Positions 6,556 through 44,493 of a stretch of 58,147 bases of DNA are shown here, in pieces. This DNA comes from Roseicella frigidaeris (GTDB lineage Bacteria > Pseudomonadota > Alphaproteobacteria > Acetobacterales > Acetobacteraceae). The stretch spans positions 1-58,147 of the forward strand of contig NZ_QLIX01000027.1 in the NCBI RefSeq assembly GCF_003258945.1, read 5' to 3'. The stretch's first letter is position 1, and each line of letters opens with the position of its first letter. The translations under genes and the position numbers were made by a program. The notes under the pieces were generated by a model. That model ran no database searches, was not told the origin of the DNA, and saw only the letters and a program-made list of their open reading frames with translations.

Positions 6556-6752
6556 GCGCGGGGCACCACGGGGCGCCGCCCCAAGGTGCCCCTCGGCACG
6601 CGGTCTACGGCGCGGCAGGACCCCTCGCTCGCATGGCCCAAAGGGCCACGCTCCCTCCGGGGCCCGGCCGCGCCCGCCCGCATGCCACCCCTCCTTCCCC
6701 GGTCTCGGCGACGCCAGGGAAGCAGCGGGGCTGCTTCCCGCTGCGCAGGAAG
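6556..6752 (+). repeat. Hairpin-rich leader repeat, copy 1 (upstream of DUF932 gene)
   Basis: This ~197-bp element recurs at 40951-41167 and 44268-44493 with roughly 90% identity by eye. It contains a GGGGCG/CGCCCC hairpin near 6570, TGGCCC/GGGCCA around 6634-6648 (loop AAA here), and a perfect 10-bp stem with GGG loop at 6717-6739 just before the ribosome site. Indels between copies shift any reading frame, so it is noncoding. It ends about 18 bp before the ATG at 6770. Copies 2 and 3 extend ~40 bp further upstream than this one. Function unknown; see findings. Confidence 0.85.
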
Positions 6753-6769
6753 AGAAAGGGTTGGCACCA

Positions 6770-7147
6770 ATGTCTTTCATCGGTCGCACCACGATCCTCC
6801 GCCCGAACGGCGTCACCCCGCTGTCGGACGAGGACATCCGCAAGCTCGCGCCCTCCGCCTTTGCCACGGAGGCGCACGAGAGCCGCAGCGCGCGCTACGC
6901 CTACATCCCGACCTCCGAGGTCATCCGCGGCATGCGCGAGGGCGGTTTCCTGCCGATGGCCGCCGGGCATCCTGAAGGCGCTCGGGGTGGTGTTGGTGAT
7001 CGCCGGCGTGAAGCTGATCGGCGTCTATTGACCGGCCCGACGGTGCAACAGGCCGACCCGTGCGGCGGCGCCTTGACCTTCCCCCCATGGAAAGGGCCAG
7101 GCTTGCGCTATGGCAGCGCCGCAACCCAAAGGACCGATAACGGCTGA
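6770..7147 (+). pseudogene. Truncated DUF932-type (phage/plasmid-like) gene
   Basis: The first ~65 codons match the N-terminus of DUF932 proteins: GRTTILRPNGVTPLSDEDIR and later YAYIPTSEVIRGMREGGFLPMAA. Intact members are roughly 250-400 residues. Here the match ends abruptly at about 6963 and the frame runs out into unrelated sequence to a stop at 7147. At the break a different frame (about 6963-7031) encodes a hydrophobic tail, ILKALGVVLVIAGVKLIGVY, which looks like the last helix of some other membrane protein. This is therefore a recombination junction where the metal-resistance cargo joins the backbone. The ATG at 6770 follows leader copy 1. Confidence 0.75.
7073..7103 (+). promoter_or_regulatory. 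CueR/MerR-type promoter-operator
   Basis: TTGACC at 7073-7078 is followed, with the long 19-20 bp spacing typical of MerR-family promoters, by a weak -10 (CAGGCT/AGGCTT around 7098-7104). Within the spacer is an imperfect dyad, ACCTTCC...GGAAAGG, close to known CueR-class operators. The ATG of the ABC permease is at 7110, about where transcription would begin, suggesting a leaderless mRNA. No merR/cueR gene is nearby, so the activator must be encoded elsewhere. Confidence 0.55.
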
Positions 7148-7919
7148 AGGGATCAACTGGATCGGCCTCTGGACCCTCTATCGCCGCGAGGTGCGCCGCT
7201 TCCTGGCGGTAGCGGCGCAAACGGTGGCCGGGCCGGTGGTGACCACGCTCCTCTTTCTCGCCGTCTTTGCCGTTGTCATGAGCCGGCGCGGTCCGCCGCA
7301 GCCGATCGGGGATGTATCCTATCTGGAGTTCCTGGCAGCGGGGTTGGTCGTCATGACCATGGCGCAGAATGCGTTCGCCAACACCTCCTCCTCGCTCCTG
7401 ATCGCCAAGGTCCAGGGCAACATCGTCGATCTTCTGGTGGCGCCCCTCTCGCCGATGGAGCTCGTCGCCGGCTTCGCCCTGGGCGCGGTGACGCGTGGCC
7501 TGCTGGTCGGTGCGGCCGTCGCCCTCGCCATGGGGCCGTTCGTCTCTTTCCGTGTCGCGCACCCGGGCTTCGTCGTTTTCCACGCGTTGGCGGCCTGCCT
7601 GCTGCTCGGGCTGCTCGGCATCCTCGGCGGGCTGTGGGCACAGAAGATGGACCACCTTGGCGCGGTGACCAGCTTCGTCGTGACGCCGCTTACCTTCCTG
7701 TCCGGCACCTTCTACTCGGTCGCCGACCTGCCACCGTCCTTCCAGGCGGTGGCGCATGCCAATCCGTTCTTCTACATGATCGACGGCTTCCGCTACGGCA
7801 TCACCGGCCATGCTGATGGCTCGCTGGCCGTCGGGCTGGCGGTCATGGCCGGCGCCAATCTTCTCCTGGCCGTGGTGAGCTGGCGGCTCATGACGGCCGG
7901 TTGGCGGCTGACCGCCTGA
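7110..7919 (+). CDS. ABC-2 type transporter permease
   Basis: A 269-residue integral membrane protein with six predicted helices in the ABC-2 (NodJ/YadH-like) arrangement: a cytoplasmic N-terminus, TM1 near 38-58, a loop with LIAKVQGNIVDLLVAPLSPMEL between early helices, and the C-terminal SGTFYSVADLPPSFQ segment that precedes the last helices and is diagnostic for these exporters. It overlaps the next gene by 1 bp and pairs with the ATPase at 8570. The CueR-like promoter points to a copper-, silver- or gold-induced export or envelope-repair role; the substrate is not evident from sequence. Confidence 0.85.
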   Translation: MAAPQPKGPITAEGINWIGLWTLYRREVRRFLAVAAQTVAGPVVTTLLFLAVFAVVMSRRGPPQPIGDVSYLEFLAAGLVVMTMAQNAFANTSSSLLIAKVQGNIVDLLVAPLSPMELVAGFALGAVTRGLLVGAAVALAMGPFVSFRVAHPGFVVFHALAACLLLGLLGILGGLWAQKMDHLGAVTSFVVTPLTFLSGTFYSVADLPPSFQAVAHANPFFYMIDGFRYGITGHADGSLAVGLAVMAGANLLLAVVSWRLMTAGWRLTA

Positions 7920-8566
7920 TGGACGGAATCTCCGGCGTCCTCTTGCCCCTGGGCCTGGGGCTGCTCGGCTTCATCGAGCCCTGCTCCATCGGCTCCAGCC
8001 TGCTGTTCCTGCAGCTGGTGGAGGGCCGCCCGGCTGCCACGAAGGTGATGCAGGCGGTGGTGTTCACGCTCACCCGCGCCGTCATGGTTGGCCTGCTCGG
8101 CGCAGCGGCCGCGCTCGTCGGCACTGCGTTCCTCGGCTTCCAGCGGGCTGCCTGGGTGGGGCTGGGCGCGCTCTATGTCGTGCTCGGCCTGGTCTATCTC
8201 ACCGGCCATGCCGGGCGGCTCATGCGCCCCCTCGGGCCAAGTCTGGGACGCCTGTCGGGCACCGGCGGGGCGGCGGCGCTGGCGGTGCTGTTCGGCCTGA
8301 ACATCCCGGCCTGCGCCGCGCCCCTGCTGGCTGTGGTGCTCGGATCGGCGGCAGTCGGTGGGTCGGCGCAGGTGGCCCAGGGATTCTTCATGCTGGCGCT
8401 GTTCGGCCTGGCGCTGTCGCTGCCGCTGACCCTGGCGCTGCTCTGGGCACCCGCGCGCCGCGCGATCGACCAGCTGATGGGGCTGTCCGCCCGCGTGCCG
8501 GTCGCCATCGGCCTTCTGCTCGCCCTGTTCGGCGCCTGGTCGATCTATCTCGGCCTGAAAGGCTGA
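7919..8566 (+). CDS. CcdA/DsbD-like transmembrane protein
   Basis: A 215-residue protein with about six helices. Two paired Cys-Pro-type motifs, LGFIEPCSIGSS near the start and LNIPACAAPL in the middle, match the two-fold symmetric CcdA/DsbD transmembrane electron carriers, in which two membrane cysteines shuttle electrons from cytoplasmic thioredoxin to the periplasm. The ATG at 7919 overlaps the permease stop (TGATG) and is preferred over an upstream ATG at 7901 inside the permease. Encoded between ABC permease and ATPase, it may keep metal-binding or thiol targets reduced. Metal link is inference from the promoter. Confidence 0.75.
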   Translation: MDGISGVLLPLGLGLLGFIEPCSIGSSLLFLQLVEGRPAATKVMQAVVFTLTRAVMVGLLGAAAALVGTAFLGFQRAAWVGLGALYVVLGLVYLTGHAGRLMRPLGPSLGRLSGTGGAAALAVLFGLNIPACAAPLLAVVLGSAAVGGSAQVAQGFFMLALFGLALSLPLTLALLWAPARRAIDQLMGLSARVPVAIGLLLALFGAWSIYLGLKG

Positions 8567-8569
8567 CCG

Positions 8570-9514
8570 ATGGGGGAAGGCGCACCGGCCGCCGCCATCG
8601 AGATCGCAGGCCTCGAAAAAGTCTATTCCGGGAGTGGTGGACGGGCCGGCAAGCACGCCCTGAAGGGCGTGAGCCTGACCATCCCACGGGGCAGCATCTT
8701 CGGCCTGCTCGGGCCGAATGGGGCCGGCAAATCGACCCTCATCAACATCCTGGCCGGGCTGGTCCGCAAATCGAGCGGCCAGGTGCGGGTCTGGGACATT
8801 GATCCCGACGTGGCGCCCCGAGCAGTGCGCGCATCCATTGGCGTCGTGCCCCAGGAACTGACCCTCGATCCGTACTTCCCGGCGCGCGCGGCGCTCGAAC
8901 TGCAGGCCGGCCTCTTCGGCATCCCCAAGTTGGCGCGACGCACCGACGAGCTACTCGCAGCGCTCGGCCTGGCGGACAAGGCAGACGCGCCCGCCCGCAG
9001 CCTGTCCGGGGGCATGCGCCGGCGGCTCATGGTCGCCAAGGCGCTGGTCCACCATCCGCCGGTTCTCGTGCTCGACGAGCCGACCGCCGGCGTCGATGTC
9101 GCGCTGCGCCAGCAGCTCTGGGCCTATGTCCAGGACCTCAACCGCGCCGGCACGACCGTGCTGCTGACAACGCACTACCTCCACGAAGCCGAAGCCTTGT
9201 GCGACCGCATCGCGGTGCTGGCCGATGGCGAGATTCGGGCGAACGACACGACCGACGCCCTGCTGCGGCGGGTGGAGGACAAGGCACTGACCATCGAGCT
9301 GGCCGTCCCCCTGGCGGAGGTGCCCGAGGCGCTTTGCCGCTTCCATCCGGTACTGGCGGGGCCGCAGGCGCTGGTCTTCCGCTACGGGCGAAGCAGCGGC
9401 GCGGCGGACGAAATCCTTGCGGCCGTCCAGTCCGCCGGACTGGTCGTGCGCGACCTCACGACCAGCCAGGCGGACCTGGAGCAGGTCTTCCTCGATCTCT
9501 TTCGCCGGAGCTGA
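8570..9514 (+). CDS. ABC transporter ATP-binding protein
   Basis: A 314-residue cytoplasmic ATPase partner of the permease at 7110. All motifs are intact: Walker A GPNGAGKST (about 50-58), Q-loop VVPQELTLD, signature LSGGMRRRL (about 143-151), Walker B VLVLDEPTAGVD, and H-loop TTHYLHEAE. The ~90-residue C-terminal extension is typical of drug/lipid/Nod-type ABC exporters. It starts 3 bp after the CcdA-like gene, so the three genes form one operon. No substrate can be deduced. Confidence 0.93.
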   Translation: MGEGAPAAAIEIAGLEKVYSGSGGRAGKHALKGVSLTIPRGSIFGLLGPNGAGKSTLINILAGLVRKSSGQVRVWDIDPDVAPRAVRASIGVVPQELTLDPYFPARAALELQAGLFGIPKLARRTDELLAALGLADKADAPARSLSGGMRRRLMVAKALVHHPPVLVLDEPTAGVDVALRQQLWAYVQDLNRAGTTVLLTTHYLHEAEALCDRIAVLADGEIRANDTTDALLRRVEDKALTIELAVPLAEVPEALCRFHPVLAGPQALVFRYGRSSGAADEILAAVQSAGLVVRDLTTSQADLEQVFLDLFRRS

Positions 9515-9516
9515 TG

Positions 9517-9694
9517 GGCTTCCGAGCGCAACGGAATTCGAGGAAAAGCCTATGATTTCCTACAGTTAGCCGAGGATTTGGTGTATAATCAGCTCCAGGA
9601 TCAACCCCTTCAGGAGCTCTCCGATGAAGCCGAAGAAAAATTTTCGTACCCGCAACCAAAACAAGGCTTTGCCAAACGGCAAAAAAGCCTTTAA
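9517..9694 (+). pseudogene. Low-GC gene 3' remnant
   Basis: Directly after the ABC ATPase stop, the same frame stays open for 59 codons and reads like a real protein end (AYDFLQLAEDLVYNQLQDQ, then Glu/Lys/Pro-rich to a TAA at 9692). GC content falls sharply compared with the flanks and codon use differs, marking foreign DNA. No start codon with a ribosome site is evident, so it is most likely the C-terminal scrap of a transposase or other gene from a lower-GC donor. Family not identified. Confidence 0.35.
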
Positions 9695-9779
9695 GATCAG
9701 TGGTTTGCGTCGCTTTTTCCTGGCACTGCCCTTCAGTGCAGCGGGAAAGGCCGCTGCACTGAAGGGCAGTGCCATATAG
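9624..9779 (+). CDS. Possible small basic 51-residue ORF
   Basis: An ATG at 9624 with AGGAG 7 bp upstream and TATAAT at 9584-9589 opens a 51-codon frame, rich in Lys/Arg (MKPKKNFRTRNQNK...). Its 3' third is the perfect hairpin at 9721-9774. It overlaps the remnant at 9517-9694 in another frame, and the opposite strand is also open here, so coding status is uncertain. The promoter-like and ribosome-site signals are the only positive evidence. Confidence 0.22.
   Translation: MKPKKNFRTRNQNKALPNGKKAFKISGLRRFFLALPFSAAGKAAALKGSAI
9721..9774. repeat. Perfect 24-bp inverted repeat (hairpin/cruciform)
   Basis: Bases 9721-9744 and 9751-9774 are exact reverse complements separated by a 6-nt GAAAGG loop. 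Each arm is itself palindromic (GCACTG-5 nt-CAGTGC), so the region can form one long or two short hairpins. No U-run follows on either strand, so it is not a standard terminator. A degenerate third copy of the arm (CTGCACT...GCAGT) occurs near 9829-9847. It lies in the AT-richer foreign patch. Confidence 0.8.
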
Positions 9780-9893
9780 CACATTTTGCGGCAAAAGTCA
9801 ATCTTGAATACCACATATTGTGTCGATATGCTGCACTCCAGCGCAGTAGGGCATAGCCCGCTTTCCCATAAAATCTGATACTGGCGTCTGGCC

Positions 9894-10409
9894 TCAGACC
9901 GTTCGCTCAGTGACGGAGGGGCGAACAGGCCGAAGCGCCATCAAGGCGATGAAGGCACTCAAGCAGCACGCGGCCGAGACGGCGACCGACGCCGCGCCGT
10001 ACCAGTCGATCAGCAGCCCCAACAGGAACGGCGCACAAGCCTGGATGAAGCGCGACGGCGCGCCGAGCAGCCCCTGGCGCAGGCCGTAGCCCTCCGGGCC
10101 GAAGATGGCGAGCGGCAGCGTGCCCTTCACGATGGTCAGCACGCCGTTGCCGGCACCGTGCAGCAGCACGAACGCTGCCGCCGCCGGCGCGCCGATGAAG
10201 AACAGGGCCGCCGCGCCGATCGGATGCGCGATGCAGGCCAGGCGCGCTGAGATCAGCGGATGCGCCTTTCGCAGCAGGCCGAACTCTGCCACGTGCGCAT
10301 CGCCCGGCGGACCCGGGGCTGGTATGAGGCCGGGATGTCCCAATAGCGCTCGAGACCGTAAGGCCATCATTTCGCCGTTGCTGTCGGCCAATGGCGAAGT
10401 GTGTGCCAT
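9894..10409 (-). pseudogene. MFS transporter remnant (C-terminal half)
   Basis: About 125 residues match the second half of a major facilitator: a cytoplasmic segment ending LLRKAHPLISARL, then helices through GAGNGVLTIVKGTLPLAIFG, GLRQGLLGAPSRFIQ and ACAPFLLGLLIDWYGA. A complete MFS protein has ~400 residues and twelve helices; only about five are present. The first ~45 codons are not obviously MFS-like. It sits between the low-GC patch and chrB, consistent with deletion when the copper-type module and chromate island came together. Confidence 0.7.
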
Positions 10410-10436
10410 GGGCGTAGTCTTCGGCAGCGCAGGGAG

Positions 10437-11486
10437 CTAACGGCCTCTCGGCGGTCGGTCAAAGTAGCGGTGCAGGTCGTCAAAGATCTCCGCGCCACGC
10501 CGCAGCCGCTCCTCGTCGTCCGAGGTCGCGGCGCAGAGGCCCCCAATCAGGGTGCGGACGCCGTCGGCCTCAGGCCGGCCGAACTTGCCGTCTTTGAGAT
10601 CGATGTCGTGCACGATCTCCGCCACTGCCGCGAGCGCCCGGTCGCCTGAAAGGCCAGCACGGCCGAGCAGCACCTCAAAGGTGCAGCGGTCGCCCTCGTG
10701 GGTGACCTCAGCCTCCGCCATGTCGAAGCGGACCTCGCCCGGGCCTAGCTCGGCGGCCTTGCCGGGGACGAAGCGGAAGCGCGCTTCTGGGTCGATGAAG
10801 CGACGCACCAGCCAGGCCGAGGCGATGCGGTCCACGTGCACGCCGGCACGGGTGACCCATATCAGGCCTCTCAAGGCTTCGGCCGGCGCCGCCGTCGCCT
10901 GCGGGGGAGGGGCCGCCTGGGCCTCGTCCTGCGCGGCCAAGCGCGCCGTCAAGCTGGCGAGCAAGCCCTCGACCGCCTGCCGCCCGTGCGCGCCGAAGAA
11001 GTCGATGGCCGCGACCTGGTCCAGCCGCGAGCGGAGCCGGCTGAGCCGGGAGCGGGCATCGCTGCCGGGAGCCTCCCCGGCCTTGCCCGCCTCCTCGGCC
11101 TCGGCGGCGAGCTGGCGGGCCTCCTCGGCCAGCGCCTCGTAGTCGGCGTCGCGGGCACGGTCGAAGAGGGCACGCACGTCGGCATCAGTCATGCCCTCCA
11201 CCAGCCGCGCCTCGCAGACCAGCGGCTCGCCGCCGGCCTCGGTGATCTCCTTGGCCAGCCAGCCGAAATCCTCCTGCGCCTCGGCGGTGGCGGGCAGGGC
11301 GTAGGCCGCGTTCTTCACCGCCACCGCGCCCAGCGCCTGCAGGCGGCGCCAGACCTTGACCCGCAGGTAGGCCGGCTTGGCCGGCAGCTGGAACACCAGC
11401 AGGAGCCAGCGTTCGCCCGTCCCGCTCTCGGCGGAGATCGCCGCGGCAGGGTCGGGCGGTCGCGGGGCCTTGGACTTGGAGCTCAT
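10437..11486 (-). CDS. chrB: ChrB chromate-resistance regulator
   Basis: A 349-residue two-domain ChrB. The N-terminal domain (about 20-190) carries RWLLLVFQLPAKPAYLRVKVWRRL, typical of ChrB sensors/regulators. The C-terminal ChrB domain (about 210-345) has WVTRAGVHVDRIASAWLVRRF, FDMAEAEVTHEGDRCTFE and IVHDIDLKDG, a fold shared with the shorter protein at 13908. In known systems ChrB is a chromate-responsive regulator of chr genes. It overlaps the MFS gene (ATGA), so the two form one minus-strand operon divergent from the SOD-rhodanese gene. Confidence 0.9.
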   Translation of the reverse strand: MSSKSKAPRPPDPAAAISAESGTGERWLLLVFQLPAKPAYLRVKVWRRLQALGAVAVKNAAYALPATAEAQEDFGWLAKEITEAGGEPLVCEARLVEGMTDADVRALFDRARDADYEALAEEARQLAAEAEEAGKAGEAPGSDARSRLSRLRSRLDQVAAIDFFGAHGRQAVEGLLASLTARLAAQDEAQAAPPPQATAAPAEALRGLIWVTRAGVHVDRIASAWLVRRFIDPEARFRFVPGKAAELGPGEVRFDMAEAEVTHEGDRCTFEVLLGRAGLSGDRALAAVAEIVHDIDLKDGKFGRPEADGVRTLIGGLCAATSDDEERLRRGAEIFDDLHRYFDRPPRGR

Positions 11487-12766: not shown

Positions 12767-12934
12767 GCCGTGGTGTTCCTCCCTGCGACGTCCGGGCGGG
12801 CCTGCCCGGTGCGGTCACTTCGCAACCGATATGGCATATGTATCTCATATCAGTAAACATGAAACACTTGTATCTTGATCAATTTTCTGCCTACCCTCCG
12901 CGGCAACCGACCGATCACCCCGGAGGAAGCGCCC
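12767..12934. promoter_or_regulatory. Divergent promoter/operator region of the chr cluster
   Basis: This gap between the MFS and SOD-rhodanese genes is unusually AT-rich at 12825-12892. It holds a GATATG...CATATC inverted repeat (12828-12851), and GATATGGCATATGTATC (12828-12844) resembles a site at 17446-17462 before the second chrA (13 of 17 positions). A further TGTATC occurs near 12870. These are plausible operators for ChrB. A GGAGGA ribosome site at 12922-12927 sets the GTG start at 12935. Confidence 0.5.
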
Positions 12935-13903
12935 GTGCCGCACACCGTGACGCCGCTGCCGTTCAAGCCCCCGCGGCTGCAGGGCCTCTCCGAGCGGCTG
13001 CTCGCCAGCCACTACGAGAACAACTACGGCGGGGCGCTGCGACGGCTGAACGCGATCGAGCGGCGCCTGGGCGAACTCGACTGGGGATCGGCGCCCGTCT
13101 TCGAGATCAATGGACTGAAACGCGAAGAACTGATCGCCGCCGGCTCCGTCATCCTGCACGAGGTCTACTTCGACGGCCTCGGCGGCGAGGGCGGCGACCC
13201 CGCCGGGGACCTCGCCGCGGCACTCGAGCGCGATTTCGGTTCAGTCGGGCGATGGCGGACGGAGTTCACCGCTATGAGCAAGGCGCTCGCCGGCGGCTCG
13301 GGCTGGGTGGTGCTGGCCTGGTCGCCGCGCCTGGGCCGGCTGGTGAACCATTGGGCGGCCGACCACGCGCACGGCCTGGCCGGCGGCGTGCCGGTCCTCG
13401 CGCTCGACATGTACGAGCACTCCTACCACCTCGACTTCGGCGCCCGCGCCGGCGACTACGTGGACGCGGTGATGCGCAACCTGCACTGGGAGCGCTTAGG
13501 CCGGCGCCACCAGGCCGCCGTGAGCACCCCTGCCGCCTCGGGCGAGAACCACGGCGGCAGCGATGCCATCGCACCCGAGCGTGTGCGCGACATGCTGGCG
13601 AGCGGCGAGCCCGTGACGGTGCTCGACGTGCGCAAGCCGGAGGATCTGACCCGCGCCGCCGACCGGATCGCCGGGTCCAGCTGGCGCGATCCCGAGGCCA
13701 TCGCATCCTGGGCGGAGGCCCTGCCGCACGACCGGCCTATCGTCGCCTACTGCGTCTACGGCTTTCAGGTCAGCGGCGATGTGGCCGCCGCGCTGCGCCG
13801 GCGCGGCCTCAACGCCCGCGTCCTCGCCGGGGGCATCGCCGCTTGGCACGCCATCGGGGCGCCGGCCGCGCCTCTGCCCCCCAACGTCACACAGGGAGCC
13901 TGA
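12935..13903 (+). CDS. chrC: Fe/Mn superoxide dismutase fused to rhodanese domain
   Basis: A 322-residue fusion. Residues 1-195 are a Fe/Mn-SOD with ligands His26 (SHYENNYGG), His75 (LHE), Asp158 and His162 (LDMYEHSYH). Residues ~212-310 are a rhodanese domain with a candidate active-site Cys273 in YCVYGFQVS and a preceding DVRKPEDL strand. SODs occur in chr operons as chrC; fusion to a sulfurtransferase domain suggests coupling of superoxide removal with thiol/sulfane-sulfur chemistry during chromate reduction stress (inference). The GTG at 12935 is preferred over 12875 because of GGAGGA 7 bp upstream. It starts a plus-strand operon running to 16949. Confidence 0.88.
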   Translation: MPHTVTPLPFKPPRLQGLSERLLASHYENNYGGALRRLNAIERRLGELDWGSAPVFEINGLKREELIAAGSVILHEVYFDGLGGEGGDPAGDLAAALERDFGSVGRWRTEFTAMSKALAGGSGWVVLAWSPRLGRLVNHWAADHAHGLAGGVPVLALDMYEHSYHLDFGARAGDYVDAVMRNLHWERLGRRHQAAVSTPAASGENHGGSDAIAPERVRDMLASGEPVTVLDVRKPEDLTRAADRIAGSSWRDPEAIASWAEALPHDRPIVAYCVYGFQVSGDVAAALRRRGLNARVLAGGIAAWHAIGAPAAPLPPNVTQGA

Positions 13904-13907
13904 CGCC

Positions 13908-14501
13908 ATGGCCACGTGGATCACCCGCGAGCGCCCGAAGATCGACCGCATCGCCTGCCCCTGGCTGATTCGGCGCTTCGTCGACCCGGCCGCCGAGTTC
14001 CTCTACGTACCGACCGACCGAGTCTTTGCCGTGGCGAAGGAGACCGGCGCGACGCCGTACGACATTCCGGGCGCCGATCCCTTCTCGCACGACGGCGAGC
14101 TCTGCACCTTCGATGCCTTCCTGCAGCACTACCGGCTGGACGACCCGGCGCTGCATCGGCTGGCGGTGATCGTGCGCGGCGCCGACACGGCGCGGCACGA
14201 CCTCGCCCCGGAGGCCTCCGGCCTGCATGCGATCTCGATGGGCCTGTCGGCGATCATCCCCGATGACCACGCCATGCTGGAGCAGGGCATGGTGATCTAC
14301 GACGCCCTCTACGCCTGGTGCCGCGGCGACGCCGGCGAGGTGCACAATTGGACGCCGCCGAAGGCCGCCGCATCCGCCGAAGGGCCGGTGAACGCAGTGG
14401 GCCAGGACGTCGTCGAGGAGGCGTCGGAGGAGTCCTTTCCGGCGAGCGATCCGCCCTCCCACACGCCGATAGCCAGGCCCGGCGCGCCCAAGAGCCGGTG
14501 A
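13908..14501 (+). CDS. Stand-alone ChrB C-terminal domain protein
   Basis: A 197-residue protein equivalent to the C-terminal half of ChrB: WITRERPKIDRIACPWLIRRF, IPGADPFSHDGELCTFDAF and IVRGADTAR align with the matching blocks of ChrB at 10437. Unlike ChrB it lacks the N-terminal regulator domain, so it may have an enzymatic or redox role rather than a regulatory one. The tail carries EEASEESFPASDPP, a short motif I recall at the ends of various proteobacterial stress proteins. It begins 4 bp after the SOD-rhodanese stop. Confidence 0.82.
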   Translation: MATWITRERPKIDRIACPWLIRRFVDPAAEFLYVPTDRVFAVAKETGATPYDIPGADPFSHDGELCTFDAFLQHYRLDDPALHRLAVIVRGADTARHDLAPEASGLHAISMGLSAIIPDDHAMLEQGMVIYDALYAWCRGDAGEVHNWTPPKAAASAEGPVNAVGQDVVEEASEESFPASDPPSHTPIARPGAPKSR

Positions 14502-14571
14502 AGCCAAGGCAGATGGGGCACCTGCGTTCGCAGAACGAGAATCCGGTAGCACGACAGCGGCGGACCCACAG

Positions 14572-15828
14572 ATGAAGACCGACGCGTCCGCGTCCACCGC
14601 CGAGGGCGGGGCGGAGGCCGCTCCCCCGCGGCTCTCGCAGGCGCAGATCTTCTGGCGCTTCCTGCACTTCGGTTTCCTCGCCTGGGGAGGACCGGTGGCG
14701 CAGATCGCGATGATCCGGCGCGAGCTCGTCGAGGAGGAGCGGTGGGTCTCGAGCCCGAGGTTCAACCGGCTGCTCGCGGTCTACCAGGTCCTCCCGGGCC
14801 CGGAGGCGCACGAGCTGTGCGTCTTCCTCGGGACGCTCCCGGGCGGGCGGCTGGGCGGCTTCCTCGCGGGCCTCGGCTTCATGCTGCCGGGCTTCGTGCT
14901 GATGTTCGCCCTCTCCTGGCTCTACTTCTCGACCGACCTCGCCCGGACGGCACTCGGCGCCGCCTTCCTGGGCGTGCAGCCGGCGGTGATCGCGCTGATC
15001 GTGGCGGCCGTGCACAGAATTGGCAGCCACATCGTCGTCGACGGATGGCTGTGGGGGATTGCGATCGCCACGGGACTCGCCGCCTTCGGCGGCACGCCGT
15101 TCTGGATCGCGCTGCCCGCCGCCGGCCTGTTCTACGTCCTGGCGGCTAGCGGCCGGCGCGCCCTGGCCGTTCTTCTGGCCGTGGCGTTCGCCGCCGTGGC
15201 GCTGTACTACGCCTGGCTCCTGCTGGGTGCCCCGGCGCAGCCTGCCGGAGGCACGGCCGCGCCGGCCGAGTCTGTTGGCCAGGGCGCATCGCTCATCGGC
15301 CTGTTCCTCTCTGGTCTGAAGGCGGGCCTGCTGACCTTCGGCGGTGCCTATACCGTCATTCCGTTCCTGCGCGACGACGCGGTCGGCAACGGCTGGATGA
15401 CCGACGCGCAGTTCCTCGACGGCCTCGCGCTCTCGGGCATCCTGCCGGCGCCGCTGATCATCTTCTCCACCTTCGTCGGCTACTTCGGCGGAGGGCCGCT
15501 CGGCGCCGTCGCGATGACGGTCGGCATCTTCCTGCCGGCCTTCAGCTTCTCGCTCCTCTTCCATGACCAGCTCGAGCGGCTCGTCGAGAACAAGGCGATG
15601 CGGACCTTCCTGGAGGGGGTGTCGGCGGGCGTGGTGGGCCTCATCGCGGCCACGACGGTCGAGCTCGCCCACAAGACGCTCGGGAACGTGCCGGGCGTGC
15701 TGCCCGCCGTCGCGATCTTCGGCGCGGCGCTGGCCGTCCTCTATCTCTGGAAGGCGAAGACGAACGTGGTCTTCGTCGTCCTCAGCGCCGGCCTCGCCGG
15801 GTGGCTGCTGTTCGGGGGCCAGGGATGA
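14572..15828 (+). CDS. chrA: Chromate transporter ChrA (first copy)
   Basis: A 418-residue long-chain (two-domain) CHR-family membrane protein that exports chromate. Each half shows the CHR signature: FLAWGGPVAQIAMIRRELVEE with LPGPEAHE in the N-half, and LLTFGGAYTVIPFLRDDAV with SGILPAPLIIFSTFVGY in the C-half. About ten to twelve helices are predicted. A ~25-residue polar N-terminus precedes the first helix. It is in the same plus-strand run as SOD-rhodanese and the ChrB-domain protein, 70 bp downstream. Confidence 0.94.
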   Translation: MKTDASASTAEGGAEAAPPRLSQAQIFWRFLHFGFLAWGGPVAQIAMIRRELVEEERWVSSPRFNRLLAVYQVLPGPEAHELCVFLGTLPGGRLGGFLAGLGFMLPGFVLMFALSWLYFSTDLARTALGAAFLGVQPAVIALIVAAVHRIGSHIVVDGWLWGIAIATGLAAFGGTPFWIALPAAGLFYVLAASGRRALAVLLAVAFAAVALYYAWLLLGAPAQPAGGTAAPAESVGQGASLIGLFLSGLKAGLLTFGGAYTVIPFLRDDAVGNGWMTDAQFLDGLALSGILPAPLIIFSTFVGYFGGGPLGAVAMTVGIFLPAFSFSLLFHDQLERLVENKAMRTFLEGVSAGVVGLIAATTVELAHKTLGNVPGVLPAVAIFGAALAVLYLWKAKTNVVFVVLSAGLAGWLLFGGQG

Positions 15829-15963
15829 GCGAGGGAGGTCCGCGATGAACAGAAGGCCCGCCGGATCCCACGCGTGTCGCCGGGGGTGGATCGGGGCGGG
15901 CGGCGGCGCGGCGCGGTTCGGCCGCCTCGAGATCAGGACCCTGCAGCGAAACGGGAGGCCCGA

Positions 15964-16557
15964 ATGCTCTACGCCATGAAGCCGCTCGCCTGCGATCCCG
16001 CACGGATCAAGGGCATGTCGGAGCGGCTCATCGTCAGCCACTACGAGAACAACTACGGCGGCGCGGTGAAGCGCCTCAATTCGATCGCCGACCAGCTCGC
16101 CTCGCTGGACTTCGACGGCGCGCCGGGCTTCGTGGTCAACGGGCTCAAGCGCGAGCAGCTGATCGCGATGAACTCCATGATCCTGCACGAGGTGTTCTTC
16201 GCCTCGCTCGGGGAGGAGAGCGGGCCGGACGATGTCCTCCAGGAGGCGCTCGCGCGGGACTTCGGCTCCGTCGAGCGCTGGCGGTCCGAGTTCGTGGCCA
16301 TGGGCAAGGCGCAGGCCGGGGGCTCGGGCTGGGTGCTGCTGACCTGGTCGAAGCGCGACCGGCGGCTCGTGAACGCCTGGGCCGCGGACCACACGACGAC
16401 CGTGGCGGACAGCACGCCGGTCCTGGCGCTCGACATGTACGAGCACTCCTACCACATGGACTACGGCGCCAAGGCCGGCGACTACGTCGGTGCCTTCATG
16501 GCCGCGATCAACTGGGGCAGCGTCAGGCGCCTCCTCGACGAGGCGCGCGGGCCATGA
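15964..16557 (+). CDS. Fe/Mn superoxide dismutase (second copy)
   Basis: A 197-residue SOD, closely similar to the SOD half of the fusion at 12935 but without rhodanese. Ligands are His26, His75, Asp157 and His161. The motifs MSERLIVSHYENNYGG, GGSGWVLLTWS and LALDMYEHSYHMDYG are intact. The ATG at 15964 has GGGAGG 7 bp upstream; an in-frame start at 15874 lacks one. The SOD pair in one cluster probably arose by duplication followed by gain or loss of the rhodanese domain. It removes superoxide formed when Cr(VI) is reduced. Confidence 0.93.
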   Translation: MLYAMKPLACDPARIKGMSERLIVSHYENNYGGAVKRLNSIADQLASLDFDGAPGFVVNGLKREQLIAMNSMILHEVFFASLGEESGPDDVLQEALARDFGSVERWRSEFVAMGKAQAGGSGWVLLTWSKRDRRLVNAWAADHTTTVADSTPVLALDMYEHSYHMDYGAKAGDYVGAFMAAINWGSVRRLLDEARGP

Positions 16558-32166: not shown

Positions 32167-32175
32167 GGCAGGGCA

Positions 32176-36402: not shown

Positions 36403-36414
36403 CCAGAACTCCCG

Positions 36415-39317: not shown

Positions 39318-39348
39318 GTAGGCGTGGTAGGCGCGTTCGCGCAGCCTA

Positions 39349-39430: not shown

Positions 39431-39572
39431 CACCCTGGAGCGCGCCGAGGAATAGGCCCGGCACCTGGCGCTGAAGCATCCCGGCCACAAGATTTTCGTG
39501 CTCGCGCCTTGCAGCGCGACCGTGAAGACGGACGTGCAGGTCCGGCGCTTCGACACTCAGATCGCGCCGTAG
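39411..39572 (+). pseudogene. Degraded plasmid ORF with internal stop
   Basis: The frame AFRYLWPTLERAEE-stop-ARHLALKHPGHKIFVLAP...DTQIAP reads as one small protein (~55 residues) interrupted by a TAG at 39453-39455. Helix-rich start and KHPGHKIFVL strand resemble small hypothetical proteins common on alphaproteobacterial plasmids. No start codon is clear. It is wedged between CapP-like and the reverse transcriptase gene, whose 3' end overlaps it on the other strand. Confidence 0.4.
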
Positions 39573-40324
39573 ATCGTCTTCAGCTCCTCCGCCTGGTCCG
39601 GGTTGATGCCCTCGACGTAATGCACGATCGCCGCTTCCCGCAGCCCCGTCTTGGTCCGCTCCACCGCCGCGAACTGATCCATCCGCGCGTCGGTGACCCT
39701 CGCCTCCCCGGTGGTCAGCCGCAGGTTAAATGCCTCGACCACGGTGCCGAGCTGACGCTTGTGCGGATGCAGCTCGAAGCCGGCTTCCTCTGCCGCCGCG
39801 TCGAGGGTGACGACATGCCGTGCCAGCGCCTCCTCGCCGTCGGCCGACATCAAGACATCGTCCATGTAGACCGCCAAGCGGATCTCGCCCGCCGCGGCGC
39901 TGAGCGCCTTGCCGAGCGCAGATTGGTCCAGGGCGATCGAGGCCAGGACGGGCGACTGCACGAAGCCGAACGGCAGGCTGAACCCCGTCGCGCCTGGCTT
40001 GCGCACGGTGCTGACCTGCGCGGTCTCCCAGGCCGACTTCTGTGAAAAGCCCACCTTGCGGAGCGCGCGGTGGATCTTCGGCCGGGTGACGCTATCGAAG
40101 AACGATCTAATGTCGAGGCGCGCGAACTCGGGGTTCGAGAGGTGAACCAAGCTCGCCGCGACGTGCCCGCCCTTCTGGAAATGGAAAAAATAGTCGGGCG
40201 GCGACCAATGCTTGAGTACGGCCTTGATGATCCGTCTGCCGTCCTCCTGGCCCTTTTTGGTCGGGACGAAGATCAGCAAGCCTCGGTCGGTCGTGAACTT
40301 ATGGGTGAATGCGTCGTAGTTCAT
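39557..40324 (-). CDS. Compact reverse transcriptase (DRT/unknown-group type)
   Basis: A 255-residue RNA-dependent DNA polymerase. RT motifs: FARLDIRSFFDSV (Asp71), FSLPFGFVQSPVLASIAL, and catalytic YMDD at 153-156. It has no maturase, endonuclease or DGR-type accessory domain, and FGFVQSP replaces the QG seen in retron and group II enzymes. This fits the Abi/UG 'defence-associated RT' groups, though I cannot assign the subgroup. At 255 residues it is shorter than most. A 44-codon ORF overlaps its start and a hairpin-rich stretch lies upstream. Location beside CBASS supports a defence role. Confidence 0.85.
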   Translation of the reverse strand: MNYDAFTHKFTTDRGLLIFVPTKKGQEDGRRIIKAVLKHWSPPDYFFHFQKGGHVAASLVHLSNPEFARLDIRSFFDSVTRPKIHRALRKVGFSQKSAWETAQVSTVRKPGATGFSLPFGFVQSPVLASIALDQSALGKALSAAAGEIRLAVYMDDVLMSADGEEALARHVVTLDAAAEEAGFELHPHKRQLGTVVEAFNLRLTTGEARVTDARMDQFAAVERTKTGLREAAIVHYVEGINPDQAEELKTIYGAI

Positions 40325-40433: not shown

Positions 40434-40700
40434 GAACAGGGGACCCTACTTGCCCCAGCGGCCATGCCATGGCTGCGTAGCCACTAACCAAGTCGTAACG
40501 ACCTTCCTAGAGTGATCCTCCGGGTCGGCCGTGACGGTCCATGCCTCCTCATGGGTGAGCCATGAAGACGCGCGAGAGTCCCCCCGTAATGCTGGGGTGG
40601 TAGCGACATAGCACGGTCATTGACCGGATTGGAATGAAAAACTGGAAAGTCCCCGAGAGTCGATCGCCTTACAGGGGATCGCCGGGCGCCCACGATATCA
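40434..40700 (-). ncRNA. Candidate structured RNA upstream of the reverse transcriptase
   Basis: On the minus strand this 267-nt stretch has no good ORF but many stem-loops: GTCGT/ACGAC at 40492-40502, GGCT/AGCC at 40471-40482, GGCCGT/ACGGTC (wobble) at 40527-40540, TCATGG/CCATGA at 40549-40565, CCCC/GGGG near 40582-40597, and CGGTCA/TGACCG at 40614-40626. Retrons and several DRTs use an upstream ncRNA as template, so this is a plausible template or cofactor RNA. No expression or conservation evidence is available. Confidence 0.4.
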
Positions 40701-40950
40701 CAACGCCCCGCCGCCTCAGTCGGCCTCTCCGACCGCCACCGGGCGCTTCCTGACCGGAGGCTCGGAATGGTGGAGCGTCATGCCGGCGCCGTCGACCTCG
40801 AAGTGTGCCTCCGGATACGCGGAAAGCTGCCGGCGCTTGGTCGCCTGCCTGCGCAACAGAACAATTGCGAACCAGCAGCGAAGCGCTTCCTAAGCGATAT
40901 AAAGGCGCAATCAATCGCACATCTCTGCACCGTGGGCCTATGCTGATTTC

Positions 40951-41167
40951 CCGTTGATCGTCGCCTCCGGCGCCGCCGGCGCGGGGCACCACGGGGCGCC
41001 GCCCCGAGGTTCCCCCGGCACGCGGCCTACGGCGCGGCAGGACCCCTCGCTCGCATGGCCCGCGGGGCCACGCTCCCCCCGGGGCCCGGCCGCGCCCGCC
41101 CGCATGCCACCCCTCCTTCCCCGGTCTCGCCGACGGGCAGGGAAGCAGCGGGGCTGCTTCCCGCTGC
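40951..41167 (+). repeat. Hairpin-rich leader repeat, copy 2 (upstream of parB-like gene)
   Basis: Same element as 6556-6752 and 44268-44493, here with the extra 5' part starting CCGTTGATCGTCGCC shared with copy 3. The TGGCCC/GGGCCA stem has loop GCG (AAA and AG in the others), so the stem is kept while the loop varies. The 10-bp GGGAAGCAGC stem with GGG loop is at 41140-41162. A GAAGGAGG ribosome site and ATG (41187) follow. The upstream part of the gap (40701-40950) has a possible minus-strand small ORF (ending near 40717) but nothing firm. Confidence 0.88.
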
Positions 41168-41186
41168 CACGAAGGAGGATCACCAC

Positions 41187-43145
41187 ATGACCGACACCAT
41201 CGTCCGCGCCACGGCCGAGATCGTGCTCGGCAGGCTCGACCCCTCCCCCGCCAACGTGCGCCGCACCGGCGCCGGGCAGGGCGTCGAGGCCCTCGCCGCC
41301 TCCATCGCCGCCCACGGGCTGCTGCAATCCCTCGTCGTGCGCCCGAAGGGCGGGGGCCGCTACGAGGTGGTCGCCGGCGGGCGGCGGCTCGCGGCGCTCC
41401 GGCTGCTGGCGAAGGCGAAGCGGCTGCCGAAGGGCGCCGCCGTGCCCTGCCATGTGCTCGACGGCGACGCCGGGGAGGATGCGGCAGAGGCGAGCCTTGC
41501 GGAGAACGTGGTTCGGCAGGACATGCACCCGGCCGACCAGTTCGAGGCCTTCGCCGCGCTGCACCGGGGCGGCGAGGGCCTGGGCGTGGAGGAGATCGCC
41601 GCCCGCTTCGGCGTCTCCGCCCACACCGTGCGCCAGCGGCTCCGCCTCGCCGCCGTCTCGCCCGCCATCGTCGCGGCCTACCGCGAGGGCGCCCTCACCC
41701 TGGACCACGTCACCGCCTTCGCCGTGACCGACGACCGGGAGGCGCAGGAGCGCGTCTTCGCGGGCCTCGCGGATTGGCAGCGCACGCCGGCGACCATCCG
41801 CCGGCTGCTGACCGACGCGCTGCTGCCCACCACGGACCGGCGCGTGGCGCTCGTCGGGCTGGACGCCTACGAGGCGGCCGGCGGGCGCGTGCAGCGCGAC
41901 CTGTTCTCGGAGGACGGCGGCGGCTGGATCGCCGACCCCGCCCTCCTCGAGGAGCTCGTCGGCCGGCGGATGGAGGCCGAGGCCGAGGCGGTGCGCGCGG
42001 AGGGCTGGCGGTGGGTGGCGGTCGGGGCGGAGGCGTCGGACGCCCTCTGGCGCTGCCGCCGCATCTGGCCGGCCAGGGCGCCGCTGACCGAGGCGGAGGA
42101 GGCCCGCCGCGACGCGCTCTCGGCCCGCTACGACGAGCTCGCGGAGGGGCACGGCGGCACCGACGACGACCTGCCGGAGGCGGTCGCCGCCGAGCTCGAT
42201 GCCATCGAGGCGGAGGTCGACGCCCTCGAGGTCCGGGAGGCGGCGTGGCGGCCGGAGGACCTCGCCCTCGCGGGCGCGCTCGTCACCCTCGCCGGCGACG
42301 GCCGGCTGGCCGTGACGCGCGGCCTCGTGCGGCCGGAGGACGAGCCGAAGCCGGCGGCCCCGCATGGCGCCGGGCGGGACGAGGAGGACGGCGACGCCCT
42401 GGACTCTCCCGGCACGGAGGGGGCCGAGGCCCCGGCCGCCGAGGAGGACGCGGAGGACAAGGCCCCTGCCCTCTCCGCCGCGCTCGTCGCCGAGCTCCGG
42501 GCGCACCGCACCCTCGGGCTCCAGGCCGAGCTCGCGGGCCGGCCGGACCTGGCGCTGCGGGTGCTGCTGCATGCCCTGGCGGGCGACGCCTTCTACGGCC
42601 GCTACGGCGACGCGGTGGCGAGCTTCCCGGCCTACCCGCCGGCCTTCGCCGGCGTGGCCGGCCTCGCCGACAGCCCGGCCCGGCGGCGCGTGGAGGAGGC
42701 CGAGGCCGCGCAGCGCGCGCGCCTGCCCGCCGACCGGCGCGGCCTCTGGGCATGGCTGGCCGGGCAGGACGAGGCGGCGCTGCTGCGGCTGCTGGCCGTC
42801 CTCGTGGCCCGCGTGGCGGACGCCGGCGCCGGGGACTGGACGGCGCCCGGGGACACCGTGGCGGCCAGGGTCGCCGCGGCGGCGGGGCTGGACATGCGGC
42901 GGTGGTGGTCGGCGACGCCGGCGAGCTACCTCGCCCGGGTGCCGAAGGCCGCGATCCTCGCCGCGGTGCGCGAGGGCGCCGGCGAGGACGCCGCGCGCCG
43001 CCTCGCCGGCATGAAGAAGGAGCCGATGGCGGAGGCGGCGGCCGCCGCCCTGGACGGCCGGGGCTGGCTGCCCGCCGCGCTGCGCGTGCCCGGCGCGGTG
43101 GCCGCGAACGACGCCGCCGCGCCCCCTGCCCTCGCCGCCGAGTAG
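41187..43145 (+). CDS. ParB/RepB/Spo0J-type nuclease-domain protein
   Basis: A 652-residue protein. The ParB N-terminal domain (about 10-100) shows LDPSPANVRRT, VEALAASIAAHGLLQSLVVRP, YEVVAGGRRLAALRLL and EASLAENVVRQDMHPADQFEAF. An HTH follows (GVEEIAARFGVSAHTVRQRLRLAAVSPAIV). The C-terminal ~450 residues are Ala/Glu-rich with an acidic linker and no known domain, far longer than classical ParB (~300). Such large ParB-like proteins are common on plasmids and are not necessarily the segregation ParB. ATG 41187 has a strong ribosome site after leader copy 2. Confidence 0.87.
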   Translation: MTDTIVRATAEIVLGRLDPSPANVRRTGAGQGVEALAASIAAHGLLQSLVVRPKGGGRYEVVAGGRRLAALRLLAKAKRLPKGAAVPCHVLDGDAGEDAAEASLAENVVRQDMHPADQFEAFAALHRGGEGLGVEEIAARFGVSAHTVRQRLRLAAVSPAIVAAYREGALTLDHVTAFAVTDDREAQERVFAGLADWQRTPATIRRLLTDALLPTTDRRVALVGLDAYEAAGGRVQRDLFSEDGGGWIADPALLEELVGRRMEAEAEAVRAEGWRWVAVGAEASDALWRCRRIWPARAPLTEAEEARRDALSARYDELAEGHGGTDDDLPEAVAAELDAIEAEVDALEVREAAWRPEDLALAGALVTLAGDGRLAVTRGLVRPEDEPKPAAPHGAGRDEEDGDALDSPGTEGAEAPAAEEDAEDKAPALSAALVAELRAHRTLGLQAELAGRPDLALRVLLHALAGDAFYGRYGDAVASFPAYPPAFAGVAGLADSPARRRVEEAEAAQRARLPADRRGLWAWLAGQDEAALLRLLAVLVARVADAGAGDWTAPGDTVAARVAAAAGLDMRRWWSATPASYLARVPKAAILAAVREGAGEDAARRLAGMKKEPMAEAAAAALDGRGWLPAALRVPGAVAANDAAAPPALAAE

Positions 43146-43155
43146 GGGCACGACC

Positions 43156-43178
43156 GGGCCGCCCCGACCGGGCGGCCC
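43156..43178 (+). terminator. Hairpin after parB-like gene
   Basis: A perfect 9-bp stem, GGGCCGCCC (43156-43164) and GGGCGGCCC (43170-43178), with a 5-nt loop, starts 10 bp after the stop codon. No U-run follows, but in such GC-rich plasmids strong hairpins alone often mark transcript ends. Confidence 0.5.
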
Positions 43179-43285
43179 TCCCTTCCCCGCACCCATGCGC
43201 GCGGGCCGGCACCGCCGGCCCGCGCGGCTCCGCTTCCCCGGCGGCGCGACCCCGCCGCCACCGGCCGCTGTCGTCCCGCATACGC

Positions 43286-43305
43286 TTGTATATCGTCCCG
43301 AATGC
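43286..43305. promoter_or_regulatory. TGTATATCG motif, site 1
   Basis: TTGTATATCGTCCCGAATGC lies 140 bp after the parB-like gene, an AT-rich island in GC-rich DNA. Near-identical sequences occur at 44061-44080 and 45531-45550. Probably a shared promoter/operator element for the maintenance genes. Confidence 0.45.
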
Positions 43306-43349
43306 CAACCGATTCTGCTACGCCAGCGAAGCGGCTGCGCGGTGCATCC

Positions 43350-43765
43350 TCAGCACTCCACCGCTTCGAGGTAGTCGGGCGCCGACACGGCCAGCGCCAG
43401 CATGCGGCCGTCCCGCGTGACGACGGGCAGCCGGCGCACCCGCGCCGTCGCGATGATGAAGCAGTCGCCGGGGTCGCCGCTGCCGTAGACGGCGGGCACC
43501 GCGGAGGCCTCCGCCGCCACCGCGACGCTCACCGTCGCGAGCCGGGCCCCGGTCAGCGCCAGGGCTGCCGGAACCACCGCGCCGCCGGCATGCCGAGTTC
43601 CGGCCGGTCGCGCCGCTTCAGCTCCGCCACCCCGAGCTCCCAGGCCGAGACCGCGGAGACGTAGAGCCGCCCCTCGTCCTGCGCCGCACGCACCGCGGCG
43701 ATCGCCGCCTCCGTCCGGAACTCGCCCCGCACCAGCCAGAGCAGCGCGTGGGTGTCGAGCAGCAC
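43350..43765 (-). pseudogene. vapC: VapC-type PIN toxin with frameshift
   Basis: The first part (43553-43765) reads MLLDTHALLWLVRGE... YVSAVSAWELGVAELKRRD and the second (43350-43577, shifted frame) ...ALALTGARLATVSVAVAAEASAVPAVYGSGDPGDCFIIATA, ending in VEC. Joined, they make a normal ~135-residue PIN-domain ribonuclease with Asp4, Glu near 43 and Asp of DPGDCFI. A single-base deletion near 43560 breaks it (FRQPWR-stop instead of FRQALAL). Unless sequencing error or programmed shifting, the toxin is dead. The antitoxin gene follows upstream at 43779. Confidence 0.8.
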
Positions 43766-43778
43766 CAGGCGCCGGCGT

Positions 43779-43988
43779 CTAGCGCGGCTTCCCTGGGCGC
43801 TTCGGCGCTGCCTTCCGGAGCGCCGCGGCCTGTTCGTAGATCGGCTTCGTCAGGTCGATGCGCGGGTCGAGTTCCAGCGGCACGTCCCGCATCGCGCCGT
43901 AGCCGCGCGGCAGGCCCGCGCGTGCCGGCGCCGCCGCGCGCGGGCGCGCGGCCCTCGTCTTCCCCGTGGCGTGCGGCTTCGTGGGCAT
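43779..43988 (-). CDS. Antitoxin partner of the VapC-like gene
   Basis: A 69-residue basic, Ala/Arg/Pro-rich protein (MPTKPHATGKTRAARPRAAA...), with a C-terminal segment DPRIDLTKPIYEQAAALRK that likely docks on the PIN toxin. The N-terminal half has no recognisable DNA-binding fold. It starts 13 bp upstream of vapC on the same strand. Assignment rests on position and the docking-like tail, not on a named family. Confidence 0.6.
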   Translation of the reverse strand: MPTKPHATGKTRAARPRAAAPARAGLPRGYGAMRDVPLELDPRIDLTKPIYEQAAALRKAAPKRPGKPR

Positions 43989-44060
43989 CGAGACCTCCGG
44001 CCACTGACATGATGGGCGGCGCGCGGCGTTTCAACGCGGCGCCGGCCCGGACGCCTGCAC

Positions 44061-44080
44061 TTGTATATCGGTCCGCATGC
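44061..44080. promoter_or_regulatory. TGTATATCG motif, site 2
   Basis: TTGTATATCGGTCCGCATGC, 73 bp upstream of the minus-strand antitoxin start at 43988. It matches site 1 (43286) and site 3 (45531). Confidence 0.45.
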
Positions 44081-44267
44081 GTCACGCCAGCCCCCAGGCG
44101 TCCGGTGCCCACCGGGTGCGCGGCGTCGGGAGGCCGGCACCAGGGCAGCCGCAGCGCTGTGCAATGGCAGCGCATTGCGGGCGATCCGATAGCGCTCCGC
44201 TTTACACAATCAATCGTTACGCTGTGCCCCTGCCCCGCGGCTCGCGGGCGGCTGCGCGGTGCCTTCC

Positions 44268-44493
44268 CCGTTGATCGTCGCCTCCGGCGCCGCCGGCGCG
44301 GGGCACCACGGGGCGCCGCCCCGAGGTTCCCCTCGGCACGCGGCCTACCGCGCGGCAGGACCCCTCGCTCGCATGGCCCAGGGGCCACGCTCCCTCCGGG
44401 GTCCGGCCGCGTCCGCCCGCATGCCACCCCTCCTTCCCCGGTCTCGCCGACGGGCAGGGAAGCAGCGGGGCTGCTTCCCGCTGCGCAGGAAGA
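44268..44493 (+). repeat. Hairpin-rich leader repeat, copy 3 (upstream of ardC)
   Basis: Third copy of the element at 6556 and 40951. It begins with CCGTTGATCGTCGCC as in copy 2 and ends with the 10-bp GGGAAGCAGC hairpin at 44457-44479, then GCGCAGGAAG and the ArdC ATG at 44506. The TGGCCC/GGGCCA stem here has loop AG. A one-base length difference relative to copy 2 shifts frame, confirming it is noncoding. The other part of the 517-bp gap (43989-44267) holds TGTATATCG site 2 and nothing else recognised. Confidence 0.88.

Follow-up and report, generated by a model that had tools for sequence, protein, structure and literature searches.

A noncoding leader ahead of three unrelated genes

The stretch analysed here (the window) comprises 58,147 nucleotides of Roseicella frigidaeris, contig NZ_QLIX01000027.1 (C20 in our numbering, in which G, C and L precede genomes, contigs and loci). 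It carries a leader of about 190 bases three times, always on the plus strand; identity to copy 3 is 93% for copy 1 and 95% for copy 2. An earlier note, made from the sequence alone, had placed the copies ahead of a DUF932, a ParB-like and an ardC gene, and had suggested that they act as a single-stranded-DNA promoter or as an RNA leader; sequence inspection and a repeat search agree on their positions and strand. Judging from the sequence analyses below, we think it likely that the leader represents a family of single-stranded-DNA promoters that are like Frpo of plasmid F in kind and unrelated to it in sequence.

Three structured parts make up each leader: a small first hairpin, a long nested one joined to a conserved linker, and, before the ribosome site, a 10-bp stem without mismatch (arms GGGAAGCAGC/GCTGCTTCCC). 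The end of this stem lies 24-30 nucleotides from the ATG in the three window copies. The main hairpin is nested on the minus strand and spans about 85-100 nucleotides. The variable loop (AAA, GCG or AG) and the perfect stem next to the ribosome site are as the earlier note described them. A BLAST search of the R. frigidaeris genome (5.82 Mb, 87 contigs) returned, besides the three copies, just two stretches of 28-31 bases, and a covariance-model search of it found the window copies and no further full copy. The leader parts and the genes behind them are:

6560..6592, minus: copy 1, hairpin 1 (small, upstream); from the repeat and the fold of the homologous copy 3
6594..6719, folded strand minus, transcription would run rightward: copy 1, main hairpin and linker; cmsearch E value 1.5e-22, the sequence of copy 1 being itself among those used to build the model
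6717..6739, no strand assigned: copy 1, hairpin 3 (10-bp perfect stem before the ribosome site); from the sequence
6770..6967, plus: remnant of a DUF932 gene (about 66 codons); matched by BLASTP to the intact DUF932 protein of L048, and Pfam of L048
40983..41015, minus: copy 2, hairpin 1; repeat comparison
41016..41142, minus: copy 2, main hairpin and linker; cmsearch
41140..41162, no strand assigned: copy 2, hairpin 3; from the sequence
41187..43145, plus: ParB-like protein, 652 amino acids (ParB_N, HTH_ParB); Pfam
44300..44332, minus: copy 3, hairpin 1; repeat comparison
44334..44459, minus: copy 3, main hairpin and linker; cmsearch and folding
44457..44479, no strand assigned: copy 3, hairpin 3; from the sequence
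44506..45441, plus: ArdC antirestriction protein, 311 amino acids (ArdcN and MPTase-PolyVal, a zincin-like metallopeptidase); Pfam

The ArdC and ParB-like genes thus stand as the earlier note had them, while the DUF932 gene proved to be a truncated remnant. Its residues 1-66 closely match an intact DUF932 protein of 288 amino acids by BLASTP, the cut at residue 66 being our reading of that alignment, and its frame runs on to 7147 in unrelated DNA, ahead of an ABC-2 transporter gene (7110-7919). The same cut-and-join (window 6950-7147) is also present in L081, and contig C38 of the related genome G112 has a frame with the same start and length (125 amino acids); on C67 of G112 a full-length DUF932 gene (288 amino acids) stands behind a further leader copy. 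Ahead of hairpin 1, where the GC content is lower, copies 2 and 3 also have AATCAATCG in common (about 40905-40925 and 44200-44220), which might be an ordinary promoter or operator.

Relatives of the leader and the genes behind them

To describe the family we used two covariance models, R1, built from nine copies with a plus-strand structure, and R2, built from 51 copies. Genome counts refer to samples under strict score filters and are no census; they exclude seven pattern-scan matches, except L086, which lies on the same contig as G445:C111. R1 matched 24 of 299 sampled Acetobacteraceae genomes, with up to six matches per genome, and 3 of 385 genomes sampled at the level of the class, R. frigidaeris included each time. 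R2 matched 5 of 385 genomes of the class and 5 of 349 of the phylum; R. frigidaeris is in both sets, as is one other genome. All R2 matches of the phylum sample fall in Alphaproteobacteria, including families beyond Acetobacteraceae. One copy matched by R1, on G091:C996, was left out of the analysis. The G+C content of most copies is 65-84% (55% in L141).

The named relatives are five plasmid records, from Roseomonas mucosa, Methylorubrum and Azospirillum. On plasmid p2 of R. mucosa GlSt084, R2 matched three times on the mobF strand, and the first of these matches precedes ssb. A perfect 22-bp inverted repeat (L091 17880-17901 and 18111-18132) encloses this element; no such outer stem was seen in the window copies. 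In L052 (884-14967, G153:C6) six copies lie within 15 kb on one strand, each ahead of a different gene; five of the six downstream genes have no Pfam match, and the copies at 884 and 4468 are nearly identical.

Phage records searched by blastn with copy 3 and viral contigs searched with a corrected pattern scan yielded no match. One pattern scan had pointed to viral contig L011, where a ParB-like gene stands behind a weak model match (E values 0.001 and 0.004); this contig had no R2 match up to an E value of 0.05. BLAST matches in Komagataeibacter (L089, L090) fit neither model and were dropped.

Among 59 model hits, which contain near-identical copies (window and G112; two in G112:C67) and L011, 54 have a nearby open frame of at least 60 amino acids. 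Clustering of the downstream frames gave eight groups with at least two members and 14 singletons, of which some are doubtful calls. In 40 of 46 copies the called ATG lies 30-72 nucleotides past the end of the model. Pfam identified ArdC, ParB-like, DUF932, DUF4326, DUF3991-TOPRIM and N6/N4 methylase proteins behind the copies, and ArdA and SSB behind copies found later; of the 25 downstream proteins put through the scan, 12 matched no Pfam family. By both spacing and gene families, the element thus lies immediately upstream of leading-region-type genes and in their orientation, and the assignment made in the earlier note holds for most of the genes that could be identified. The public record of R. 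mucosa p3-AD3 may be misannotated at L006 17022-18242: where the ParB-like frame follows the second copy, it lists a hypothetical protein on the opposite strand.

This arrangement bears on the nearest alternative to a single-stranded-DNA promoter, namely a single-strand initiation (ssi) site, whose hairpin on the transferred strand would load primase or RNA polymerase solely to prime second-strand synthesis and would not serve a gene as promoter. Such a site is expected on the same strand and at the same level of folding. Frpo itself reportedly makes primer RNA too (Masai and Arai 1997), and a TOPRIM primase-like gene stands behind four copies of our element (one by Pfam scan, three by BLASTP cluster). 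However, one site per plasmid would suffice for priming, whereas the copies in L052 number six, and priming needs no coupling to start codons of the kind seen in the 40 copies. We consider a site for priming only unlikely.

The fold is conserved on the template strand

Covariation, which the earlier note had proposed as a check on the stems, is abundant. Two-sided changes occur in 25 of the 29 pairs of the main hairpin (49 distinct rows), and the number of cells with such changes was 234, compared with 71.5 in shuffles, none of 500 of which reached 234. When the partner was slid by one to three columns, 12-49 two-sided cells were left. As these sequences were aligned with a model of the same structure, the alignment is biased toward it. 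When 52 copies were aligned by MAFFT, blind to structure, the minus strand again gave a nested hairpin of this kind. The fold is, therefore, conserved.

The strand that folds can be read from the wobble pairs. In RNA, G.U is a cheap substitute for G-C on the RNA strand; if instead the complementary strand folds, its G.T pairs appear as A.C on the coding strand. In the alignment based on R1, with its plus-strand model, paired positions of the plus strand held 155 A.C and 15 G.T cells (58 of 62 rows, 53 of them distinct, after removal of three antisense self-matches and L011). Corrected for column composition, the observed-to-expected ratio was 0.80 for A.C, 0.22 for G.T and 0.24 for other mismatches. 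Coding-strand G.T is thus treated like a mismatch, and A.C almost like a pair. The strictest form of the test combined the structure-blind alignment with pairs predicted on the plus strand, a choice that favours G.T: pairs predicted in at least half of the 52 copies gave 101 A.C and 10 G.T, and lower cut-offs gave 162 and 31 (30%) or 221 and 40 (20%). The plus-strand structure of copy 3, placed on the MAFFT alignment, gave 167 A.C and 17 G.T. Base composition matters for these counts, as C outnumbers G in the unpaired part of the coding strand (936 C, 456 G), but it does not account for the difference between A.C and G.T. After clustering at 70% identity (16 representatives), 16 pairs were richer in A.C and one in G.T, and ten copies absent from both models, aligned with R2, showed 33 A.C and 1 G.T.

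Folding energies point the same way. For the MAFFT alignment of 52 copies, RNAalifold gave -46.21 kcal/mol on the minus strand and -4.98 on the plus strand, where the consensus was reduced to five pairs. With DNA parameters the minus strand was the more stable in all 53 copies, and its shuffle z score was the lower in 48 of 53 (median -2.90 versus -1.20 on the plus strand). For copy 3 (44278-44500) the z score was -2.80 for the minus strand as DNA and -1.41 for the plus strand as RNA. Wobble and covariation together show that the secondary structure is conserved on the template strand.

We ran the same test on one element of each kind. Thiamine pyrophosphate (TPP) riboswitches from the same genomes (25 of 30 loci, five below the gathering score being left out; oriented by a TPP motif) gave -23.05 on the plus and -15.01 on the minus strand. 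Their plus structure held 10 G.T and no A.C, the pairs common to the structures of both strands 2 and 0, and the predicted minus structure 21 A.C and 2 G.T. Choosing the structure on one strand thus tilts the result to that strand, which is why the counts for our element on plus-chosen structures carry weight. Nine Frpo sequences (F and relatives) gave -175.96 on the minus and -149.26 on the plus strand, with 61 G.T and 15 A.C in the plus structure, 115 A.C and 8 G.T in the minus structure, and 15 A.C and 6 G.T in the common pairs; this control is modest because the nine sequences are closely related.

Since A.C is tolerated and G.T depleted, what folds is the complement of the mRNA, a result that bears on the proposal that the element is a structured 5′ mRNA leader (an attenuator, riboswitch-like element or translation control) that coordinates the genes. 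In each window copy the element sits immediately before the ribosome site, as would suit such a leader, and the plus strand is also foldable. The plus-strand consensus of only five pairs and the excess of A.C even among plus-predicted pairs argue against it, as does Rfam: no match in the window reaches the gathering score, and the copy 3 stretch has four matches below it (best E value 0.45). TPP behaves as RNA in the wobble test and the element behaves in the opposite way, on which grounds we rejected an RNA leader or riboswitch as very improbable. Of the two roles offered by the earlier note, the test supports the single-stranded-DNA promoter and speaks against the RNA leader. To the extent that they could be computed, the refuting conditions which that note set for the single-stranded-DNA reading did not come true: most identified genes behind the copies are of leading-region type, and changes on both sides of the stems are frequent.

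An antisense RNA, transcribed from the opposite strand across the leader and conserved for its own fold, would leave an identical minus-strand wobble signature. For this, a promoter for it would have to be present at or within the 5′ ends of many unrelated genes (the eight clusters and 14 singletons), in a region that the promoter scans described below, which stop near the start codons, do not reach. The antisense reading also leaves unexplained the bias to establishment genes on transferable contigs; we judge it to be as improbable as the mRNA leader. Least probable of all is a double-stranded binding site (an operator or partition site) or a dispersed repetitive extragenic palindromic (REP)-like repeat with no strand-specific role: inverted repeats are common as operators and one downstream gene is ParB-like, but such a site predicts no asymmetry between A.C and G.T, which is about tenfold, and the family keeps one orientation and a start-codon spacing, with no further full copy in the R. 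frigidaeris genome.

Orientation relative to the relaxase

A single-stranded-DNA promoter would have to fold on the strand that is transferred. To the right of the leader copies the window carries replication and transfer genes, including a CagX-type transfer protein with the coupling protein:

46514..47461, plus: replication initiator protein A (RPA), context; Pfam
49782..49964, no strand assigned: presumed oriT stretch between two apparent divergent gene starts before the relaxase; deduced from the sequence
50262..53600, plus: MobF/TrwC relaxase, 1112 amino acids; Pfam
53586..55385, minus: type IV coupling protein (T4SS-DNA_transf); Pfam

The element was found on 48 contigs or records (L011 excluded), and in 25 of them a relaxase was located, the nearest being used where there were more (G214:C1). 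The sources were TrwC (12 contigs), PF03432 (six), tblastn with a relaxase-like protein of 739 amino acids from L061 (four, for which it is the sole source) and annotation (three plasmids). G325:C1 and G153:C18, where the relaxase is more than 600 kb off, are outside the tally, as are the plasmids of R. mucosa AD1, Azospirillum (p5) and M. populi, whose PLSDB-typed relaxases were not located. Element and nearest relaxase lie on the same strand in 23 of the 25 cases, and in 20 of these 23 the element is 5′ of the relaxase (p1META1 being counted round the circle). The contigs are not independent: those of G000 and G112 are near-identical, and G287 contributes three.

In R388-like plasmids oriT lies 5′ of the relaxase. 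If oriT is likewise 5′ of the relaxase here, an element on the same strand and 5′ of it folds on the transferred strand. This orientation is a matter of consistency and no independent proof: a common strand is usual for leading genes, and several of the contigs counted are closely related. In the two contigs with the relaxase on the opposite strand, the copy at L141 9860-9985 (G507:C17) precedes a weakly NikA-like gene (below the Pfam cut-off) and that at L142 248-380 (G543:C48) precedes ArdA; in these, oriT may lie elsewhere or the element may also work outside leading regions.

Two features of the window lie apart from these questions. A frame of 255 amino acids with an RVT_1 reverse-transcriptase domain (39557-40324, minus), just upstream of copy 2, may be a remnant of a group II intron or retron, and direct repeats about 3.03 kb apart and 72-75% identical (12925-16500) suggest tandem paralogous genes.

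A proposed route to early expression

We propose the following scheme, which parallels that given for Frpo by Couturier et al. (PMC9849209). In conjugation, the relaxase-bound strand would enter the recipient with the leading region first. If oriT is at about 49.8-49.96 kb, to the immediate left of the relaxase operon, the entering strand would be the minus strand, the template of the plus-strand genes. Each copy would fold on it into the nested hairpin, whose paired arms would mimic duplex DNA near the starts of leading genes and allow RNA polymerase to load; the polymerase would then leave through the base of the hairpin, transcribing into the gene. Unlinked genes (those for ArdC, the ParB-like protein and DUF932, and in relatives ArdA, SSB, methylase and TOPRIM) could in this way be expressed together before second-strand synthesis, which would dissolve the hairpin and leave the element silent on the double-stranded plasmid. 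Polymerase loading, the start site and the transient timing are parts of the scheme that we infer.

Several observations weigh against this reading. The oriT is presumed in every contig, so the identity of the transferred strand is deduced from sequence; the relaxase is on the opposite strand in G507:C17 and G543:C48, and in G172:C72, G266:C28 and G445:C4 the element lies 3′ of a same-strand relaxase on a linear contig. Six of the 46 called ATGs fall outside the 30-72-nucleotide range, the ssb start among the later copies is 94 nucleotides away, one L091 copy has no annotated gene start within 300 nucleotides, and the gene behind copy 1 in the window is truncated. In the covariation test, further pair types (51) did not exceed those in shuffles (48.4; 117 of 500), and the wobble signature is one that an antisense RNA would share.

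Promoter boxes belong to the same list. No TTGACA/TATAAT-like promoter was found around the three window copies as duplex, in scans that ended near the start codons, and the mostly GC-rich copies have no recognisable -35/-10 boxes. Little can be concluded from the missing sigma-70 consensus: chance alone would not be expected to produce one here, and promoters of alphaproteobacteria may deviate from it. A TGCG...GTAG arm spacing of 25-27 nucleotides, for which there is no chance control, occurs in 33 of 51 copies; it is suggestive, and we do not claim it as -35/-10 boxes. An ordinary promoter upstream of the hairpins may also be used at other times, given the AATCAATCG common to copies 2 and 3.

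Comparison with known systems

In F and ColIb-P9, promoters that work on single-stranded DNA have been demonstrated (PMC9849209, PMC8708921). Like our element, Frpo1 and Frpo2 of F and the ssi promoters of ColIb-P9 are long hairpins before leading-region operons, with several copies per plasmid, and the fold of Frpo (F and relatives) favours the minus, template strand in the same test. The gene sets are alike as well, the F leading region having SSB, a ParB of 652 amino acids and a DUF932 gene. Couturier et al. place ssb, yfjA, yfjB, psiA and psiB behind Frpo2 and ygeA and ygeB behind Frpo1 (PMC9849209); from gene order we infer that the ParB corresponds to yfjB and the DUF932 gene to ygeB. 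In sequence, R2 had no match in the F leading region (L124) up to an E value of 0.01. Folding of Frpo is said to reconstitute -35/-10 boxes (PMC9849209), whereas our element, mostly of 65-84% G+C, lacks recognisable ones and was found here only in alphaproteobacteria.

G4-type and primosome-assembly ssi sites are folded single-strand plasmid sites that load replication proteins and are not known to be tied to gene starts. The element, compared with them by description and not by sequence, is like the G4-type sites in folding on a plasmid single strand. It also resembles the EGeRS of pLS20-family plasmids, conserved noncoding sequences before several establishment operons (PMC8708921). Their authors judged EGeRS unlikely to be single-stranded-DNA promoters, partly since the nicked strand is the non-template strand; in contrast, the evidence for our element favours the template strand.

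Samuel et al. 2024 sought single-stranded-DNA promoters by BLAST to known Frpo or by a -35/-10/UP consensus, and their Frpo-like candidates share with our element the leading genes on one strand (PMC11541004); a later survey used BLAST with the sequences of Samuel et al. (PMC12826799). As far as these papers describe them, both searches would probably have missed the family. The words alphaproteobacteria, ArdC and DUF932 are absent from the main text of PMC11541004 (supplement not covered). Our literature search, whose coverage excludes most subscription papers and all bioRxiv preprints, found nothing that describes the element.

Going a step further, and with somewhat less assurance than for the promoter role itself, we favour the view that the element forms an alphaproteobacterial single-stranded-DNA promoter family of its own, on plasmids and integrated elements. 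It would have arisen independently of Frpo, lack recognisable -35/-10 boxes, occur up to six times per locus and drive a dispersed transferred-strand 'entry regulon' (ArdA, ArdC, SSB, ParB, DUF932, methylase, TOPRIM).

The comparison of A.C with G.T at covarying pairs separates single-stranded-DNA elements from RNA leaders by alignment alone. It placed both controls, one of either kind, correctly. A systematic promoter search thereby becomes possible, and if the reading is true, wobble asymmetry would be an alignment-only route to single-stranded-DNA promoters anywhere. The element also points to small genes of unknown function that may be part of the entry programme. If the proposal holds, the use of the incoming strand for early expression would be more widespread and have arisen more than once, so that expression from single strands would be a convergent and general solution.

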